Shown one piece after another: positions 22,885-54,574 of a stretch of 64,000 nt of DNA (position 1 is the first letter of the stretch; each line of letters opens with the position of its first letter). The translations under genes were made by a program, and so were the position numbers. The notes under the pieces are model-generated. The model had not been told where the DNA came from and made no database searches. It saw only the letters and a list, made by a program, of their open reading frames with translations. The stretch is taken from assembly GCF_024721605.1 (NCBI RefSeq), contig NZ_CP102630.1:1240001-1304000 (forward strand), written 5' to 3'. The DNA is from Sphingomicrobium flavum (lineage in GTDB: Bacteria > Pseudomonadota > Alphaproteobacteria > Sphingomonadales > Sphingomonadaceae).

Positions 22885-22936
22885 GCGTATGACGTTGCCG
22901 CGTTGCATCACCTGAAAAGTGATGAAAATTAGCGAC

Positions 22937-22964
22937 TTGCACCCTCCCCATCCTTTGCTATCGC
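22937..22964 (+). promoter_or_regulatory. candidate promoter of the TIR-TPR gene
   Basis: TTGCAC at 22937-22942 and TATCGC at 22959-22964 are separated by 16 bases, about 40 bases before the start codon, which has GGGGGACAGG as ribosome binding site. Confidence 0.35.
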
Positions 22965-23001
22965 TAGGCCGAATGAATGGATACGGGGGACAGGCCGCCA
23001 C

Positions 23002-24975
23002 ATGGCCGATATTTTTCTGAGCTACAAAAAGGAAGATCGCGCCGTCGCAGCCGCGATCGTCGCGGCACTGCGCGAAGCGGGCAAGTCGGTCTGGTGGGAT
23101 GATGCGCTCAATCCCAAGCAGGCTTGGGACGCGATGATCGAGAAAGAGATTGCCGAGGCCAGGAAGGTGCTCGTCCTCTGGTCGCCGCGTTCGGTCAAAT
23201 CCGACTGGGTGCGTTCCGAAGCGCATTATGCGCAGGACCATCACAAGCTCGTGCCGGTCAAGATCGAGGAATGTTCGCTCCCCCTCGCCTTCATGCTGCG
23301 TCAAGCAGTCGATCTGTCGAGCGGCAATTATAGCGACGCCAATCCAGAATGGCTCAAATTGCTCGCCTGGATCGACGGCGCGGAGCCCGAGCCCGCAGCC
23401 GATGCTGCAGCGCCCGCGCCGCCCGCCAAGCAGACCCAATGGCTCAACCCCGCGCGCAAGAAAGGCCTGATGCTGGGCCTGGCGATCGTCGCGGTGCTGG
23501 CCATCGCCGCCGCCTTGTGGACCAGCGGCATCGGCCGCGCCGCGCCCCAGCCCGACGTCATCGTCGATGCCTTCGAAGTGCGCAGTGAAGAGTTGCCCGC
23601 CAGCTTCGCCTCAAGCCTCAATGACGAAATGAGCGCGGACTTCTCCGCTTCCTCGCGCATCAGCCCCAAATTTGGCGATGGCGCCCGCAATCTTGAAGCC
23701 TATCAGCTTGGCGGCAATGTCGAGACTGACGAGGAAAATGTCCGCCTCTTCACCCGCATTTTTGCTCCGGGGATCGAAGAGCCTGTCCTGACCACCCGGA
23801 TCGAGACCGAACGCAAATATGCGGCCGACGCTCCGCGCATCCTGGGCAGCAAGGTCGCCCGGCTGGTGCGCTGCATCGCCACGGCCAGCGACAGCACCGG
23901 CAGCGAAATCGTGAAATTGCCCGAAGCGGCGATCAAGCCGTGGGCGAAATTCTGCCAGCAGCTGACGGTCGATCTAGCTGCCAGCGAAACCAAGATCGGC
24001 ACGCTTGAAGACGTCATCGATGCCGCCCCCGACTTCGCCAATGCCTGGTCAAACCTTGCCGAGACACGCCTTTGGACCGCGTTGTCTCCGCAGGCCGATC
24101 GCGCGGCCGTCATCGCGTCCGCCGGCGAAGCTGCGGACCGCGCGCTCAAGCTTGACGAGAAGTCGGCCAAGGCGCTGGCGGTGAAAGCAATGATTGCCAT
24201 GGGAGTTTTCGACCAATATGGCGACAGCGACGCGAACGCGCGCTTTGGCGACCTGATGGAATGGGAAAAGCTGGCCGAACAGTCTGTTGCCGTACGGCAA
24301 AGCGATTGCGGCTGCGAAGGGCCGCAATTTGCCGGCGGACTGCAGATGGTCGGGCGCGCTTCGGAAGGCCTCACCCATTTGCGCGAAGCGGTCGATGCCG
24401 ATCCGCGCAATATGACCCACCGGCGTGAATATGCCGACATGTTGTCATCGCTCGGGCGGTACGACGCCGCAAACAAGGCGCTGGATGAGCTGGAAGAAAT
24501 CTGGCCGCCCGCCGAGCTCGATGGCCTTCGATACAGTTTTGCCATTGCCAATGGTCGGTTCGACGACGCGCTTAAGCTCTACCGTGATTCCCTCGACGGG
24601 AAGCCCGAAGATCCGCGCGCGATCGAAATGCTGGAGGCACTCAAGTCCAAGGATCAGGCGCGCATGGACAAGGTGCTCGAGCCCTATGTCCAACAAGCCG
24701 ACAAGCTTACCGATCCATCGGCGCTCTACTATCTGGCGCACGGCAACAAGATCGACGCGCTTAAGAAGGCCGCGCGGTCGAGCCTCGATGCGCGCAAACT
24801 ATTCCTGTTCCGAATGTTGTGGTCGCCGACGCTGCGCCAATATCATCGCAGCGATGAATTTGCCGCGCTGGTCGAGCAGGTCGGCCTGGTCGATTATTGG
24901 AAGAAAAGCGGTGAGAAGCCCGATATCTGCCAAGGCAATTTTGCCGCCGAACTGAAGTTCTGCGCGGCGCTTTAG
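23002..24975 (+). CDS. TIR-domain membrane protein with TPR-like C-terminus
   Basis: The 657-residue protein starts with a TIR domain (1-~130): DIFLSYKKEDR opens strand A, AGKSVWWDDAL follows, and SVKSDWVRSEAHYA supplies the conserved W69 and the likely catalytic Glu73 found in NAD-hydrolysing TIR domains. A proline/alanine linker leads to one membrane helix (~155-174), then a beta domain (DVIVDAFEVRSEELP...) and helical TPR-like repeats (ALKLDEKSAKALAVKAMIAM, ALDELEEIW, GRFDDALKLYRDSL). Predicted topology is TIR in the cytosol, repeats in the periplasm. Related Sphingomonad proteins use the same scaffold with other N-terminal domains. Roles in defence or signalling are inferred. It has its own promoter and a terminator at 24995-25024. 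Confidence 0.85.
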   Translation: MADIFLSYKKEDRAVAAAIVAALREAGKSVWWDDALNPKQAWDAMIEKEIAEARKVLVLWSPRSVKSDWVRSEAHYAQDHHKLVPVKIEECSLPLAFMLRQAVDLSSGNYSDANPEWLKLLAWIDGAEPEPAADAAAPAPPAKQTQWLNPARKKGLMLGLAIVAVLAIAAALWTSGIGRAAPQPDVIVDAFEVRSEELPASFASSLNDEMSADFSASSRISPKFGDGARNLEAYQLGGNVETDEENVRLFTRIFAPGIEEPVLTTRIETERKYAADAPRILGSKVARLVRCIATASDSTGSEIVKLPEAAIKPWAKFCQQLTVDLAASETKIGTLEDVIDAAPDFANAWSNLAETRLWTALSPQADRAAVIASAGEAADRALKLDEKSAKALAVKAMIAMGVFDQYGDSDANARFGDLMEWEKLAEQSVAVRQSDCGCEGPQFAGGLQMVGRASEGLTHLREAVDADPRNMTHRREYADMLSSLGRYDAANKALDELEEIWPPAELDGLRYSFAIANGRFDDALKLYRDSLDGKPEDPRAIEMLEALKSKDQARMDKVLEPYVQQADKLTDPSALYYLAHGNKIDALKKAARSSLDARKLFLFRMLWSPTLRQYHRSDEFAALVEQVGLVDYWKKSGEKPDICQGNFAAELKFCAAL

Positions 24976-47835: not shown

Positions 47836-49785
47836 ATGTTGAACCAATTCAAATTGGTGCGGAGCATCATGCTGCGCATCGGCCAAGGGCTGCCGAACAA
47901 GCACAAGCTGGCCAAGGCGCTCAGGAAATGGGCGAAAGAACAGAAGGAATGGCTTGCCATCGAGCATGATGGCCGGATCGAGGGACTATTGCATGCGCTC
48001 GGCGCCGCGCAGCGGGAGGAGGAAAGCCCGCTCGCGCTGATGCTGTGCGAGGCATTGTCGGACCGGCTCGACTTTGACGAGGCGGAACGGCTGCTGCTGC
48101 GCCTGGTCGTCGCGCGCGCGCAACTGCCCTTCGTCCATTCGCTGTTCGTGGCGATCAACGGCGCCGGGATCAGCAGCGTTCGGCTGATCGGGCAAATGAT
48201 CGGCTGGGAAGGCAATGAAGCGATGCGCCGAATGCGCCGCAGCAAGCCTGCCCGGCTTGGCCTGTTATCATTGTCGAGCGACCAGCAGGGCCAACAATTC
48301 ATCACCACCGGCGACCCGCTGGATCGGCTGCTGGACAAGGCCAGCGGGGTGGACGACGCCTTGATCGACAACATGGTCGGCGCGCGCCAGCCCTGCCCGC
48401 TGGGCCGGACCGATTTTGGCCATGTCGCGCCCTTCGATCATCTGGTGGCGCTCCTCAAGGGAGCAACCCGAGAAGGCGCCGAGGGCGTCAACATCCTCAT
48501 CCACGGCCCGCCGGGGACCGGCAAGACCGAGTTGGCCCGCGTTCTTGCCAACGAAGCCGGCCTGGCGCTGCACGCCGTGGGCGAGATCAACGAATGGGGC
48601 GAGGAGCCGCTACGTTATGAACGCGTCCTGGCATTCCAGCTGGCGCAAAGCCTGCTGGCATCGGGCCATCCCGCCGCGATCCTGTTCGACGAGATGGAAG
48701 ATCTGATCGGCGACACCAAGCCGACCCAGGGGGGCTGGATGACCAGCCGTCCCGGCAGCAAGATTATCGTCAACCGCCTGCTGGAAAATAACAAGGTGCC
48801 GGTGATCTGGACCACCAATACGATCGGCAATGTCGAGCCCGCTCTGCTACGGCGGATGACGCATGTGCTGCGCCTGGGTCCGCCGCCGCCATCGGCCGCG
48901 CAGCGGATCCTGCAGCGGATCGAACGCGACGAAGATACGGGTCCCCTGCCCGCCCTCGCGGCGCTTGCCCAGCGCGAAGCGGGTGCAACCACCGTCCTGC
49001 GGGTGGCGGCCAAGGCGGCGCGGTTGAGCGGCGATGAGCGCGGGGCCGAGATTACGGCCACCTCGCTGCTGTCGGCCATCAATGGTGACGGCATGGTCAA
49101 CCGCGCCGAAGCGCCCTTCGATCCGGCGCTCATCCACGCGGACCGTTCGCTCGCCAATCTCGAACAGCGTCTGTCCGCCAGCCACGCGCAGGATGCGACG
49201 CTCCTGCTCGCAGGCGCTTCGGGGACCGGCAAAAGTGCGCTTGCCCGCTATCTGGCGCGGGTGATGGATCGCCCGCTAATCACCGCCCGCGCCGGCGATC
49301 TGCTCGCCAGCAGCGATGCGACCGTCGCTCTCGCCCAGCTTTTCCTCTCAGCCCGGCAGAACGAGGCGATCCTCCTGTTCGACGAGGCGGAAAGCCTGTT
49401 GCCCGACCGCAGCGCGCTCGGCGGGGCAATGGATGTACGGCTGGTCAACGATGTGCTGGCGCGCATGGACGATCATCCGCTGCCTATCTTTGCGGCCACA
49501 CAGGCGACTGAGCGGTTCGATCCTGCCGCGCGGCGACGCTTCGTCCACCGCCTTGCGCTGGGTCCCGTCGCCTCTCAGTCGCTCGACCCTGCGGCGCGTC
49601 ATTTCTTCGCGCGGCCTGCACCCGAAGGGCTGGCGGCGCTGGAGGGGTTGGTGCTGGGCGATTTCGCGGTCGTCGCCAAACGGCTGCGCCATGGCGATCC
49701 GGTGGATGATCGCCAATTGCTGGCGGAACTGGCGCTTGAACTGCGCACGGCAGAGTCCGCCGCGCCGTTCGGCTTCACCTTCTAA
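47836..49785 (+). CDS. tandem AAA+ ATPase of unknown function
   Basis: The 649-residue protein has a basic helical N-terminus (MLNQFKLVRSIMLRIGQGLPNKHKLAKALRKW), a helical domain to about 200, and two AAA+ modules. The first has Walker A GPPGTGKT (224-231) and Walker B AILFDEMEDL (281-290) with sensor-1 IWTTNTIG. The second has GASGTGKS (about 461-468) and ILLFDEAESLLPDR with AATQATERFDPAARRRF as arginine finger region. Such double AAA proteins act as remodellers or unfoldases (COG0464-like); no substrate is evident. The gene sits on the opposite strand between cmk and rpsA and overlaps the cmk end by four bases. ATG 47836 is chosen as start. Confidence 0.82.
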   Translation: MLNQFKLVRSIMLRIGQGLPNKHKLAKALRKWAKEQKEWLAIEHDGRIEGLLHALGAAQREEESPLALMLCEALSDRLDFDEAERLLLRLVVARAQLPFVHSLFVAINGAGISSVRLIGQMIGWEGNEAMRRMRRSKPARLGLLSLSSDQQGQQFITTGDPLDRLLDKASGVDDALIDNMVGARQPCPLGRTDFGHVAPFDHLVALLKGATREGAEGVNILIHGPPGTGKTELARVLANEAGLALHAVGEINEWGEEPLRYERVLAFQLAQSLLASGHPAAILFDEMEDLIGDTKPTQGGWMTSRPGSKIIVNRLLENNKVPVIWTTNTIGNVEPALLRRMTHVLRLGPPPPSAAQRILQRIERDEDTGPLPALAALAQREAGATTVLRVAAKAARLSGDERGAEITATSLLSAINGDGMVNRAEAPFDPALIHADRSLANLEQRLSASHAQDATLLLAGASGTGKSALARYLARVMDRPLITARAGDLLASSDATVALAQLFLSARQNEAILLFDEAESLLPDRSALGGAMDVRLVNDVLARMDDHPLPIFAATQATERFDPAARRRFVHRLALGPVASQSLDPAARHFFARPAPEGLAALEGLVLGDFAVVAKRLRHGDPVDDRQLLAELALELRTAESAAPFGFTF

Positions 49786-51215: not shown

Positions 51216-51461
51216 TCAGATGCGATCGTCAGGATTGCCTTCGTCGCCCATGTCATCGGCTTCATCGATCAGGCGATCGTCGGGATTTCCCCGATCGTCG
51301 CCATCCTCGCCCATGTCATTGCCCATGTCGTTTGCCATGGCAGCGCCATCATCCATCATCGGTTCTTCGACGACGTCGACATTCTCGACTTCGGCCGCTT
51401 CCTGTTCGGCGCACGCGGCAAGCCCGAGCGCCAGCGCGCTCATCATGATCAACTTCTTCAT
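51216..51461 (-). CDS. small acidic lipoprotein
   Basis: The 81-residue protein has the signal MKKLIMMSALALGLAAC with lipobox LAAC, followed by an acidic, low-complexity region rich in Asp, Glu, Met and Asn (MANDMGNDMGEDGDD, then two NPDDR units). The double NPDDR repeat and methionine content are distinctive; metal binding is possible but unproven. It resembles in style the lipoproteins at 4158-4668. GGGAGAATGAC precedes the ATG; a terminator follows at 51167-51193. No family recognised. Confidence 0.7.
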   Translation of the reverse strand: MKKLIMMSALALGLAACAEQEAAEVENVDVVEEPMMDDGAAMANDMGNDMGEDGDDRGNPDDRLIDEADDMGDEGNPDDRI

Positions 51462-51495: not shown

Positions 51496-53502
51496 CTAGA
51501 ACTCACCCCGTGCCACGGCTTCCAGCCGCTCGCGCCATTCGGTCGCGAGATCGGGGGTCCCGAGCGCGATACGCGCCCAGTAGATGGCGTCCGAGCGGGA
51601 AATGCCCCGTCCCTTGGCCTTGGTCAGCTCCAGCGCAATCAGTTGCTGCGCCATCGCTTCCCCTTCGGATGCGGCGAAAAAGCATCGCCGCGCCCGCATC
51701 TCGAATTGCTGCTGTTCGCTCGACCAAAGACACAGCCACAGATTGGCTGCGGTATCGCCCTCGTCGGCCAGGGCATTGAGCGCCGCGAAATGCACGGCCG
51801 GCTCTTCACCGCGGATCATGAGCTCATAATGTGAGCGGGCATGACCGACATTGGCGGCATCGCGCAACACCGCCAGTCGCTCGGCATCGTCCGCCTCGCC
51901 GATCAAGCGATCCGCATAGGCTTCGGCCAAACGGAATGTGGCCTTGAGATATCCTTTCTCCCGCGCCGCGCGGTAGAGCTCGAGCGCCCCGCGCCCGTCA
52001 TAGGCCAACTGCATCCGCGTGGCATATTCGGCATAGCGCGCGAGGCCATACAGACCGGCGGGATGATCGGCCGCAGCCGATCGCTCGAAATGGACGCGCG
52101 CCTGGTCCAGATCGCGCGGCATGACGATGCCTTCGAAATGCATCACGCCCAGCAGATAGGCAGCGACGGCATCGCCCTGCTCGCTCAGCGTCAGCAGCTT
52201 CTGGGGGCTGGTGCCTGCGAACCCGTCGGACCCGCCCAGCACTGCCAGAATCAACTGCTCGTCATCGGTTTTCTCCAGCACACCGACGGCAATATCCAGA
52301 TGGTCGAAGGCCGGCAGCATGAAGAGCATGCCTCCGCCCCCGCCGCCGCCGAGGACGCCCGCCGCCGCAGGCTGAATCTCTTCCTCGCTGACAAGCGTCC
52401 GGAGCATCCAGACCCATTCCGGATTGAGCGGATCGGCGCGCCATATCCGCAACTGCTCATTATCGGGCATTTCGGCCAATTGTTCGTCGAGGAAGGCGAT
52501 GATTATTTTCTTTTCCTCTTCGGCCGCCAGCGCATCCAGCTCTGCCTGGCGCGCTGCATCGATGGCGGCATCGCCATCGCTGGTCACGGCTGCCTCGGCA
52601 CGCTGGAAAACGGAGACCGGCGGACGAAAATAAAAGCGCGCATCCATCCGCGTCGCCGCCACGGGACCCTGCTGGGGTTGCAATCCCTTGGTCACGCCCT
52701 TCACGTCACGGCGGACATATTTGTAGAAATCGGCCAACTCGATACCGGGATAGCGCAGCATGTTGAGGACCGCAGCCGCAAAAGGGCTTGCCGGTGCATT
52801 GGGCGGCACCGCGTCATAGGCCGATTCCGATGGGCCTGCCGAATAGATGACCCCGCTATTGTCGACATTGATGGCGCCAAAATGCTGCGGCGTCTCGCCA
52901 TTCATCGGCCCGTCCATCTCGATCACCGCGCCGCTGGTGCGACAGGCATCGAGGAAGAAGATCGACAATTTCTTCGCCGTCGAAGCGGTGATGAGGTCCG
53001 CCATCCGGATATGCTGGTCATCGACAAGGAGCTGCGGCACCTTGGCCGGTGCATCGACCGGGACAAGATAATTATGCTGGTCGAATTCGAACCCGTGCCC
53101 GGCATAATAGACCAGCGCGACATCGGCGTCGGCCGCCTTGATCGCAAAATCCTTCATTGCCTGCCTCAGCGTGGCATGGTCGGCATTCTTGATCAGCGTG
53201 ACGTCGAACGCCTGCTCCGCGCCGGCCTCTGCCGCAAGCATCAACCCCGTCGATCCAAACTGCGGGTTACGCAGGGCTGCCGCGATCCGGTCGGCATCGC
53301 TGCCGGCATTGGGCAGGTCCTTCCAGGCCGTGTCGTTGGCATAGTCGCCATTGCCGATGACCAGCGCCACGCGCTTGCCGTCGACGATTTCCAGTTCCTC
53401 GAGCGGATCGAGCGGGGAAAGCGGTTGAGCCTGCGCCGGCATGGGCAGCGCAAGCGGGATCAATCCCGCCAGGAGCCATGCCGATCCGCGCCGATTTGCC
53501 AT
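51496..53502 (-). CDS. exported caspase-fold (metacaspase-like) protease with Sel1-type repeats
   Basis: The 668-residue protein starts at ATG 53502 after GGGGGGACGG and has a signal peptide (WLLAGLIPLALPMPAQAQ). Residues ~43-260 form a peptidase C14 domain: KRVALVIGNGDY, the catalytic histidine in VYYAGHGFE (His136) and the catalytic cysteine in FFLDACRTSG (Cys187). A charged helix and glycine run (VLGGGGGGGM) lead to a C-terminal half of Sel1/TPR-like repeats (AAYLLGVMHFEGIVMPRDLDQARVHFERSA, LYRAAREKGYLKATFRLAEAYADR). Bacterial metacaspases usually cut after Arg or Lys. A trypsin-fold zymogen gene starts 100 bases away on the other strand. A periplasmic location is predicted, unlike cytosolic immune caspases. 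Confidence 0.88.
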   Translation of the reverse strand: MANRRGSAWLLAGLIPLALPMPAQAQPLSPLDPLEELEIVDGKRVALVIGNGDYANDTAWKDLPNAGSDADRIAAALRNPQFGSTGLMLAAEAGAEQAFDVTLIKNADHATLRQAMKDFAIKAADADVALVYYAGHGFEFDQHNYLVPVDAPAKVPQLLVDDQHIRMADLITASTAKKLSIFFLDACRTSGAVIEMDGPMNGETPQHFGAINVDNSGVIYSAGPSESAYDAVPPNAPASPFAAAVLNMLRYPGIELADFYKYVRRDVKGVTKGLQPQQGPVAATRMDARFYFRPPVSVFQRAEAAVTSDGDAAIDAARQAELDALAAEEEKKIIIAFLDEQLAEMPDNEQLRIWRADPLNPEWVWMLRTLVSEEEIQPAAAGVLGGGGGGGMLFMLPAFDHLDIAVGVLEKTDDEQLILAVLGGSDGFAGTSPQKLLTLSEQGDAVAAYLLGVMHFEGIVMPRDLDQARVHFERSAAADHPAGLYGLARYAEYATRMQLAYDGRGALELYRAAREKGYLKATFRLAEAYADRLIGEADDAERLAVLRDAANVGHARSHYELMIRGEEPAVHFAALNALADEGDTAANLWLCLWSSEQQQFEMRARRCFFAASEGEAMAQQLIALELTKAKGRGISRSDAIYWARIALGTPDLATEWRERLEAVARGEF

Positions 53503-53602
53503 TGCCGTCCCCCCGGAACCAGCCAACACAGATGGCCTACTAACAAAAAGCAATGAACTGCGATAGGGATATGCGCATATCAGGGTCGCAGGGGGCAAAG
53601 AG

Positions 53603-54574
53603 ATGCCGGATTGGATCATGTCACTGGCCGCGCTGGCAGCGCAGGAAGCGACCTTTCCCGACAATGCCGATGAACGCTATTTCTCGCCTGACTTGACGCA
53701 GGTGGAGGCCGATGTGCCCGAAACCTGCCCTGCCGAGACGATGGATGCCGAGGGCAATTGTCCCGGTCGACGGATCGTGTCCGACAATGCGGTCGAGGTG
53801 AAACCGGGTGAAGCGCCGTGGCAGGTCTCGATCCAGTCGTTCAAATGGGATTACACGCCCGCCGAGCTCCGCCGCGCCGGAAAGGCCGAATGGGAAGTGC
53901 GCCATATGTGCGGGGGTACGCTGATCGGCGGCCGCTGGGTGCTGACCGCCGCCCATTGCCTTTCCGACGAGCGACTGAAGAAGGATTTCGACCTGCGCGT
54001 GCGCGTCGGGGCGACCGATCTGGGCTCGGGCAAGGGCTGCGAATTCAAGGTCGGCCCCAAGCGTTTCCGTCACAAGTCATGGACCAAGGACACCAAGGTC
54101 CACGACATCGGGGTCATGGAGTTGCTGCCCCACCGCAACCGAAGCTGCGAAACATTGCTCAAATCGGTGATCACGCTGCAGGTCGAGCGTGAAGAACCGC
54201 CGACCGCGCAGATGCTGCAGGTCATGGGCTGGGGCAAAACCAAGAATGTCGAAGGCAATACGGGCTCGGCGCACCTGCTGGCGGCGGATACCGTCTATCT
54301 CGATTATCAGGCCTGCCGGCAGCGGCTTGGCGATCAGCGGGTGGTCTATGCCAGTATCTGCGCCTTCAAGGAGGCAAGCTCGGCCTGCCAGGGCGATAGC
54401 GGCGGCCCGCTGATCTGGCGGCGCGAGGGTAAGCCGGTGCAAGTCGGCATCGTCAGCTGGGGCAAGGGCTGTGCCGAGCGGCGCAAGCCGGGCGTCTATG
54501 TCCGCCTCGACGAATATATTCCCTGGATCGAGGAAAAGACCGACCTCAAATTGCGGCCGCGCCGGACACGATAG
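53603..54574 (+). CDS. trypsin-fold serine protease with zymogen-like prodomain
   Basis: The 323-residue protein has an S1 protease domain: VLTAAHC with His118, HDIGVMEL with Asp168 and ACQGDSGGPL with Ser266. Residues 1-57 are a prodomain ending GNCPGRR, followed by IVSDNAVEVKPGEAPWQVSI, the equivalent of the mature chymotrypsin N-terminus (R|IVxx). Activation should therefore need cleavage after Arg57. The pocket position six residues before the catalytic Ser is serine, suggesting chymotrypsin-like rather than trypsin-like preference. The N-terminus (MPDWIMSLAALAAQ) is a poor signal peptide, but the many cysteines imply an oxidising compartment. No upstream in-frame start exists before a TAG. 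Confidence 0.88.
   Translation: MPDWIMSLAALAAQEATFPDNADERYFSPDLTQVEADVPETCPAETMDAEGNCPGRRIVSDNAVEVKPGEAPWQVSIQSFKWDYTPAELRRAGKAEWEVRHMCGGTLIGGRWVLTAAHCLSDERLKKDFDLRVRVGATDLGSGKGCEFKVGPKRFRHKSWTKDTKVHDIGVMELLPHRNRSCETLLKSVITLQVEREEPPTAQMLQVMGWGKTKNVEGNTGSAHLLAADTVYLDYQACRQRLGDQRVVYASICAFKEASSACQGDSGGPLIWRREGKPVQVGIVSWGKGCAERRKPGVYVRLDEYIPWIEEKTDLKLRPRRTR

Follow-up and report, generated by a model that had tools for sequence, protein, structure and literature searches.

Caspase-fold and trypsin-fold proteases belong to separate systems in the best-known animal cascades, the former acting in apoptosis and the latter in coagulation and complement. In animal S1A cascades, zymogens are opened after a basic residue at P1, and the paracaspase MALT1 combines a caspase fold with specificity for Arg. 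Whereas these are two separate systems, genes for both types of protease lie next to each other in a 64,000-nucleotide stretch of the Sphingomicrobium flavum genome (contig NZ_CP102630.1, positions 1,240,001 to 1,304,000 of the forward strand). This stretch, hereafter the window, has a GC content of 63%, belongs to a genome consisting of one contig of 2.34 Mb, and is the reference for all coordinates given below without a label. The pair comprises a gene encoding a caspase (C14) with Sel1 repeats and a divergently oriented gene encoding an S1A serine protease zymogen (S1). The two proteins are very probably functional partners.

Related combinations have been described in bacteria. A fusion of trypsin, pseudo-orthocaspase and DUF4384 domains in Rhizobiales is reported in PMC6426788. 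As in the window, an intact-triad trypsin-like domain is joined with a caspase p20 domain in Alphaproteobacteria; in contrast, the Rhizobiales protein is one polypeptide featuring a Gln-Cys p20 and DUF4384, whereas the window has two genes, a His-Cys dyad and Sel1 repeats instead. No match to DUF4384 was found in the window pair. Bacterial metacaspases carrying Sel1 or WD40 repeats, with N-terminal helices that may be signal peptides, are presented in PMC3501461, along with 23 metacaspase operons containing other proteolysis domains. These proteins share the caspase-Sel1 combination of the window, but the main text of that article, in which neither "trypsin" nor "serine protease" occurs, names no S1 partner.

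Trypsin, caspase and TIR domains also recur in the NTP-dependent conflict systems covered by PMC7159879 and PMC8195603, including alphaproteobacterial NucA-trypsin systems. In the vWA-MoxR systems, trypsin and caspase are described as mutually exclusive, and the systems are built around NTPases, whereas the window pairs both proteases. The open reading frames (ORFs) listed next to the pair in G001 and G034, the two other genomes of the genus carrying it, do not include the window's AAA gene (47836-49785). In the nuclease-protease pairs and in canu, according to PMC12799240, a protease (a caspase in canu) activates a co-encoded proenzyme; that proenzyme is a nuclease, whereas here it would be a second protease. 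The window caspase scores 62.2 bits against the model of the EACC1-type caspase conflict system (NF047832), the cut-off of which is 140. The pair was also considered as a known defence system and rejected, as PADLOC returned single-gene matches only (1.3e-8 with a caspase model for the caspase, 0.058 with LmuA for the S1) and the flanking genes shared with G001 and G034 are of the kind of cmk and a penicillin-binding-protein gene. In the open-licence PubMed Central literature, judged by titles, the opening lines of abstracts and selected passages, no description was recognised of a split, exported caspase-S1 pair or of an S1 beside a TIR-TPR gene. The author of a preliminary description of this locus had known of no system in which a periplasmic metacaspase is paired with an S1 zymogen; that statement requires qualification, as a fused form has been published (PMC6426788).

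The caspase gene was listed as an ORF of 722 residues starting at a TTG codon. The ATG at 53502 yields the protein of 668 residues used here (51499-53502, minus strand; feature row 51496..53502), which has the signal-peptide-like N-terminus (MANRRG...PMPAQA) previously claimed for it. Residues 43-282 match Pfam Peptidase_C14 (E 4.3e-27; 95.7 bits, curated cut-off 21.4). A Sel1 match at residues 445-480 is below its curated cut-off (24.4 vs 30.7 bits); a profile of the three orthologues clearly matches solved Sel1 proteins. The dyad that had been proposed, His136 (codon 53095-53097) and Cys187 (52942-52944), is present and invariant across 19 aligned caspases. Asp69 (53296-53298) and Asp185 (52948-52950), encoded like the dyad on the minus strand, are also invariant (19/19) and fit an acidic P1 pocket for Arg or Lys. 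Judged by motif, they may be equivalent to Asp95 and Asp211 of TbMC2 (positions as in PMC6426788). Among solved structures, MALT1 matches the caspase part best in both sequence and fold comparisons, the top Foldseek matches being MALT1. Because the two aspartates are invariant and MALT1 is the best solved match, the window caspase is a reasonable candidate for an outside protease that cuts after Arg, a specificity it probably has.

The S1 gene (53603-54574, plus strand) encodes 323 residues, and its start codon is separated from that of the caspase gene by 100 bp (53503..53602), a stretch that may serve both genes as a shared promoter region. The protein matches Pfam Trypsin (E 6.7e-45, 154 bits), features the catalytic triad His118/Asp168/Ser266, with Asp265 preceding the catalytic serine, and contains ten cysteines, of which Cys42 and Cys53 of the prodomain are kept in all three orthologues. 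As had been noted, the prodomain has Arg56-Arg57 directly before Ile58. The predicted activation site, Arg56-Arg57/Ile58 (53768..53776, plus strand; the slash denotes the cut), reads RR in the window and KR in G001 and G034. In a structure model, residues 53-59 around this site have a predicted local distance difference test score (pLDDT) <50. An earlier start providing a better signal peptide was considered and ruled out by an in-frame TAG 39 bases upstream, no ATG, GTG or TTG being present in between.

Among 71 genomes of the genus, the caspase orthologue was found in three, and the S1 orthologue (E <1e-180) in the same three, namely S. flavum (G000), G001 and G034; 13 further genomes of the 71 carry other S1s. 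Similarly, within a set of 61 genomes comprising that of S. flavum and its relatives, an S1 match at E <1e-80 and a near-full-length caspase match coincide only in G000, G001 and G034. In all three, the genes are adjacent and divergent, and the pair maps between a gene that, named by eye, we take to be cmk and a penicillin-binding-protein gene. In G001 and G034, which are close kin to each other, the S1 is 48% and the caspase 42-43% identical to the window protein. Since both domains exceed curated cut-offs and the pair is kept in two other genomes at 42-50% identity, the association is not due to chance. A search of the S. flavum genome at E 0.001 recovers a single caspase-domain match and two matches to the trypsin family; the second of the latter, in a 528-residue frame elsewhere, is tentatively taken for a DegP-type protease.

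The association extends to the order. In a survey of 346 genomes (thresholds E 1e-20 for S1, 1e-100 for the TIR-TPR protein discussed below and 1e-6 for caspase), S1s of this kind were identified in at least 46 genomes, caspases in at least 73, and both in 21. Genome presence counts are lower bounds, the best few candidates per genome being scored (up to three TIR-TPR and six S1); for instance, G187 and G188, in which an S1 lies beside a TIR gene, are unlisted in the S1 survey. Caspase and S1 genes are at most 6 kb apart in 11 of the 21 genomes, whereas random placement expects 0.16. These close pairs are divergent in G000 and G034 and on the same strand in the other nine. G255, the caspase of which fell below the search threshold, is a twelfth genome with a nearby pair, and the addition of G255 and G001 brings the paired loci to 13, in nine genera. 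In L124, L125 and L118, the end of the caspase gene and the start of the S1 gene have four bases in common. In L118, the S1 is flanked by a caspase and by a caspase-Sel1 protein like that of the window. In L124, caspase and S1 are preceded by two longer caspase-like proteins, the first showing a caspase match and weak beta-propeller matches, and the second GHG and DACHSG motifs recognised by eye only. Loci were read as stop-to-stop frames, which do not fix true starts; a longest-ORF approach overlooked genes where loci were rich in G+C.

A tree of 52 S1 domains, from which two frames lacking a recognisable His motif and the frames lacking the Asp-Ser-Gly motif (L040 included) were left out, calls for five changes of caspase adjacency, three of which are forced by supported branches. 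A topology uniting the caspase-paired S1s in one clade is rejected by the approximately unbiased (AU) test (p 0.003); gain or loss of pairing therefore took place repeatedly. Co-occurrence in other genomes, set beforehand as a test in the preliminary description, was found as divergent pairs in three genomes, as neighbours within 6 kb in 11 of 21, and as fusions.

The fusions came from a survey of 367 genomes of the class, in which an S1 match at 1e-30 was present in ten, eight of them outside the family. Four of these eight (L237-L240) encode a trypsin domain followed by a caspase domain in one frame. Both His and Cys of the dyad are present, unlike the Gln-Cys of the Rhizobiales fusion in PMC6426788. 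The S1 is N-terminal, with an activation site R/IIGG or R/IVGG and Asp189, and DUF4384 follows the caspase in all three fusions (of four) scanned with Pfam. The other four outside-family genomes show no caspase or TIR match within the stretches fetched.

Accessory domains are likewise distributed over both proteases. Nine caspase-less S1 proteins contain, before the trypsin domain, a region that is matched by the C-terminal portion of the operon caspases (domain E 3e-6 to 1e-12). In a scan covering 33 of the unpaired S1 frames, Sel1 was found in ten proteins without a caspase neighbour and WD40-type matches in one (E 0.01), and the N-terminal part of one unpaired S1 matches 1ouv and 1klx, two solved proteins with cysteine-rich repeats. 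Which of the two proteases bears these kindred accessory domains therefore differs between genomes.

The paired S1s share a feature at the activation site. Arg occupies P1 in all 13 caspase-paired S1s vs 7 of 39 unpaired ones by rule; the latter count becomes 8 when L111 is added by eye and 12 in the loosest reading, the only one to include L099 (Fisher 1e-7 to 8e-6). The rule scored as lacking a site the nine unpaired rows (of 39) without a W/F/Y-Q anchor. Position 189 of the S1 pocket (chymotrypsin numbering) varies: 11 of the 13 paired S1s have Asp, that of L123 has Ala, and that of the window has Ser, its Ser260 (codon 54380..54382, plus strand) standing opposite kallikrein's Asp. Trypsin-like specificity is therefore expected in the 11, and self-activation is possible. 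The preliminary description had taken the serine in the pocket to point to a two-step cascade. That argument does not survive, as the G001 and G034 orthologues have Asp where the window has the chymotrypsin-type Ser; other paired S1s being mostly Asp189, the serine marks the window's species, not the system. S1 proteases with Ser189 prefer large hydrophobic residues. The window S1 should consequently not cut its own Arg57, and an outside protease cutting after Arg would be needed here.

The commonest neighbour of S1s of this kind, overlooked in the preliminary description, is a membrane protein with TIR and TPR domains. A gene of this TIR-TPR family is present in 35 of the 36 fetched S1 loci that lack an adjacent caspase, the exception being L101. 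The protein is encoded by 45 of the 46 S1 genomes (7.2 expected; hypergeometric 3e-46, kinship ignored) and lies at most 6 kb from the S1, mostly convergently, in 40. In the remaining six, it is located elsewhere (G000 and G034) or 9 kb away (G272), the S1 is near a contig end (G140 and G155), or no such gene was found (G101). The count of linked genes excludes the TIR-TPR paralogues that G001 and G034 carry about 5 kb away from their S1. The six TIR-TPR proteins examined feature an N-terminal TIR domain with an S-x-W-x-x-x-E motif, one hydrophobic stretch after SRR (weak in L118), and then TPR; the part in between presumably resembles TolB. Caspase, S1 and TIR-TPR genes form one same-strand row in L126 and L129. 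L152, a Phenylobacterium contig of 8.3 kb, carries a frame for a Sel1-type caspase and, immediately after it, one for a TIR-TPR protein, and no S1 was seen. The window S1 has no TIR-TPR gene of this family within 6 kb, that of G000 being about 380 kb away. The link to a TIR membrane protein is a larger surprise than the protease pair.

Several further TIR-TPR loci were observed. The G000 gene (G000:C1:912501-914411; L221:5972-7921) has no S1 beside it and belongs to the same family as the S1-linked genes of other genera; G034 carries a TIR-TPR gene in a similar neighbourhood (L222:6302-8248). Two tandem TIR-TPR frames lie about 5 kb downstream of the S1 in G034 (L218:2882-6405) and G001 (L220:2506-6044), and the corresponding place in the window yielded none. 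The window also encodes, at 22933-24975 (plus strand; Pfam TIR_2 5e-24) and about 27 kb from the pair, a second and more distant TIR-TPR protein. In G343 (L127:8364-10409, minus strand), two tandem S1 genes adjoin a TIR-TPR gene, one having a CRRIVS activation site and its neighbour none. Caspase-type frames of 1108 and 1078 residues map about 4 kb from the TIR-TPR gene in L223:11504-14830 (G143) and L224:1730-4966 (G313), respectively; no S1 match was found in these two stretches, and the long L223 protein also matches DUF7379.

We propose that the caspase and the S1 are partners that together form a single exported proteolytic module. In this scheme, the caspase would be held or triggered through its Sel1-repeat half, cut after basic residues and release the S1 by cleaving Arg57/Ile58, and the new S1 N-terminus would insert as in chymotrypsinogen. 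Activation of the S1 by the caspase at Arg57 has a nearly even chance of being correct. In most relatives, the Asp189 S1 probably also cuts after Arg, and the pair could amplify itself both ways; in the window's species, Ser189 should stop self-activation, leaving a one-way relay. In the family at large, the likely target would be the TIR-TPR membrane protein, with proteolysis outside the cytoplasm being read by a cytoplasmic TIR domain. That the TIR protein acts downstream in the window's species is possible but doubtful. Unlikely in its entirety is the broader proposal of an outside-in, immune-like relay of sphingomonads, in which an exported paracaspase-type protease opens an S1 zymogen, a single-pass receptor with TPR outside and TIR inside reads the signal, split, operonic and fused arrangements of the two proteases represent a single system in different states, and the window holds a version made one-way by Asp189 to Ser. 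If true, a bacterial module joining both protease folds, probably extracytoplasmic and TIR-linked, would be a simple and testable model for the origin of proteolytic relays and of outside-in TIR signalling; for an exported bacterial metacaspase, it would supply a concrete candidate substrate in which only one cut site is predicted.

Several observations weigh against caspase-driven activation in a dedicated exported pair. When the tree is taken into account, three independent pairs are available, about two showing the link between Arg at P1 and a caspase and none the opposite, which is not significant. Arg at P1 is general among S1A zymogens, and an Arg-type S1 occurs in G343, where no caspase passed the search threshold. 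Where Asp189 is present (11/13), an outside activator may not be needed, and the relay could run either way. Genomes with both S1 and caspase are in modest excess (21 vs 9.7 expected, kinship ignored in the statistic), and the S1 has no caspase neighbour in 34 of 46 S1 genomes. Besides that of G001, 16 loci with full-length-matched Sel1-type caspases, taken from the best 80 of 352 confirmed stretches in a contig scan with the caspase alignment, show no S1 within up to 7 kb per side, less in some; a contig scan using the window S1 alone as query gave no match. Export of the window S1 is plausible, but its N-terminus, MPDWIMSLAALAAQEATF, is a poor signal peptide, which had gone unreported. In a simple hydropathy test of 12 S1s, it had the weakest export signal, the other 11 having more hydrophobic N-termini.

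The alternative of some weight, although not a likely one, is that both proteases work in parallel on a shared target, for example cell-surface proteins or the ectodomain of the TIR-TPR protein, under shared regulation and without activating each other. The divergent genes and their 100-bp gap would suit such an arrangement, as would the company of S1 and TIR-TPR in 45 of 46 genomes; L152, moreover, suggests that either protease may accompany the TIR protein alone. In contrast, the protease fusions and the Arg at P1 in every paired S1 suggest a tighter link. A reverse relay, in which the S1 zymogen is opened through self-cleavage or by a different protease and the S1 then cuts and activates the caspase, is improbable. 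The 11 Asp189 S1s could cut after Arg or Lys, their own R/IV site included, and in the four fusions an Asp189 S1 is N-terminal; the window S1, however, with Ser189, should favour large hydrophobic residues and not self-activate. It is very improbable that the neighbourhood is an accident of one lineage, arisen once in the ancestor of the three species and kept by descent without joint function: the pair is indeed restricted to 3 of 71 genus genomes, always at the same site between cmk and the penicillin-binding-protein gene, and Sel1-type caspases mostly lack S1 neighbours, but pairs occur in nine genera, proximity in 11 of 21 genomes far exceeds the 0.16 expected, the AU test rejects a single clade, and fusions exist. 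For the interpretation given in the preliminary description, the pairing stands and the pocket argument is lost, with the direction of activation between caspase and S1 best regarded as presumptive.

Just downstream of the caspase gene, on the same strand, lies an ORF of 81 residues (51219-51461, minus strand) without a Pfam match. Its product is lipoprotein-like and rich in Asp, Glu and Met, and the ORF might be co-transcribed with the caspase gene.

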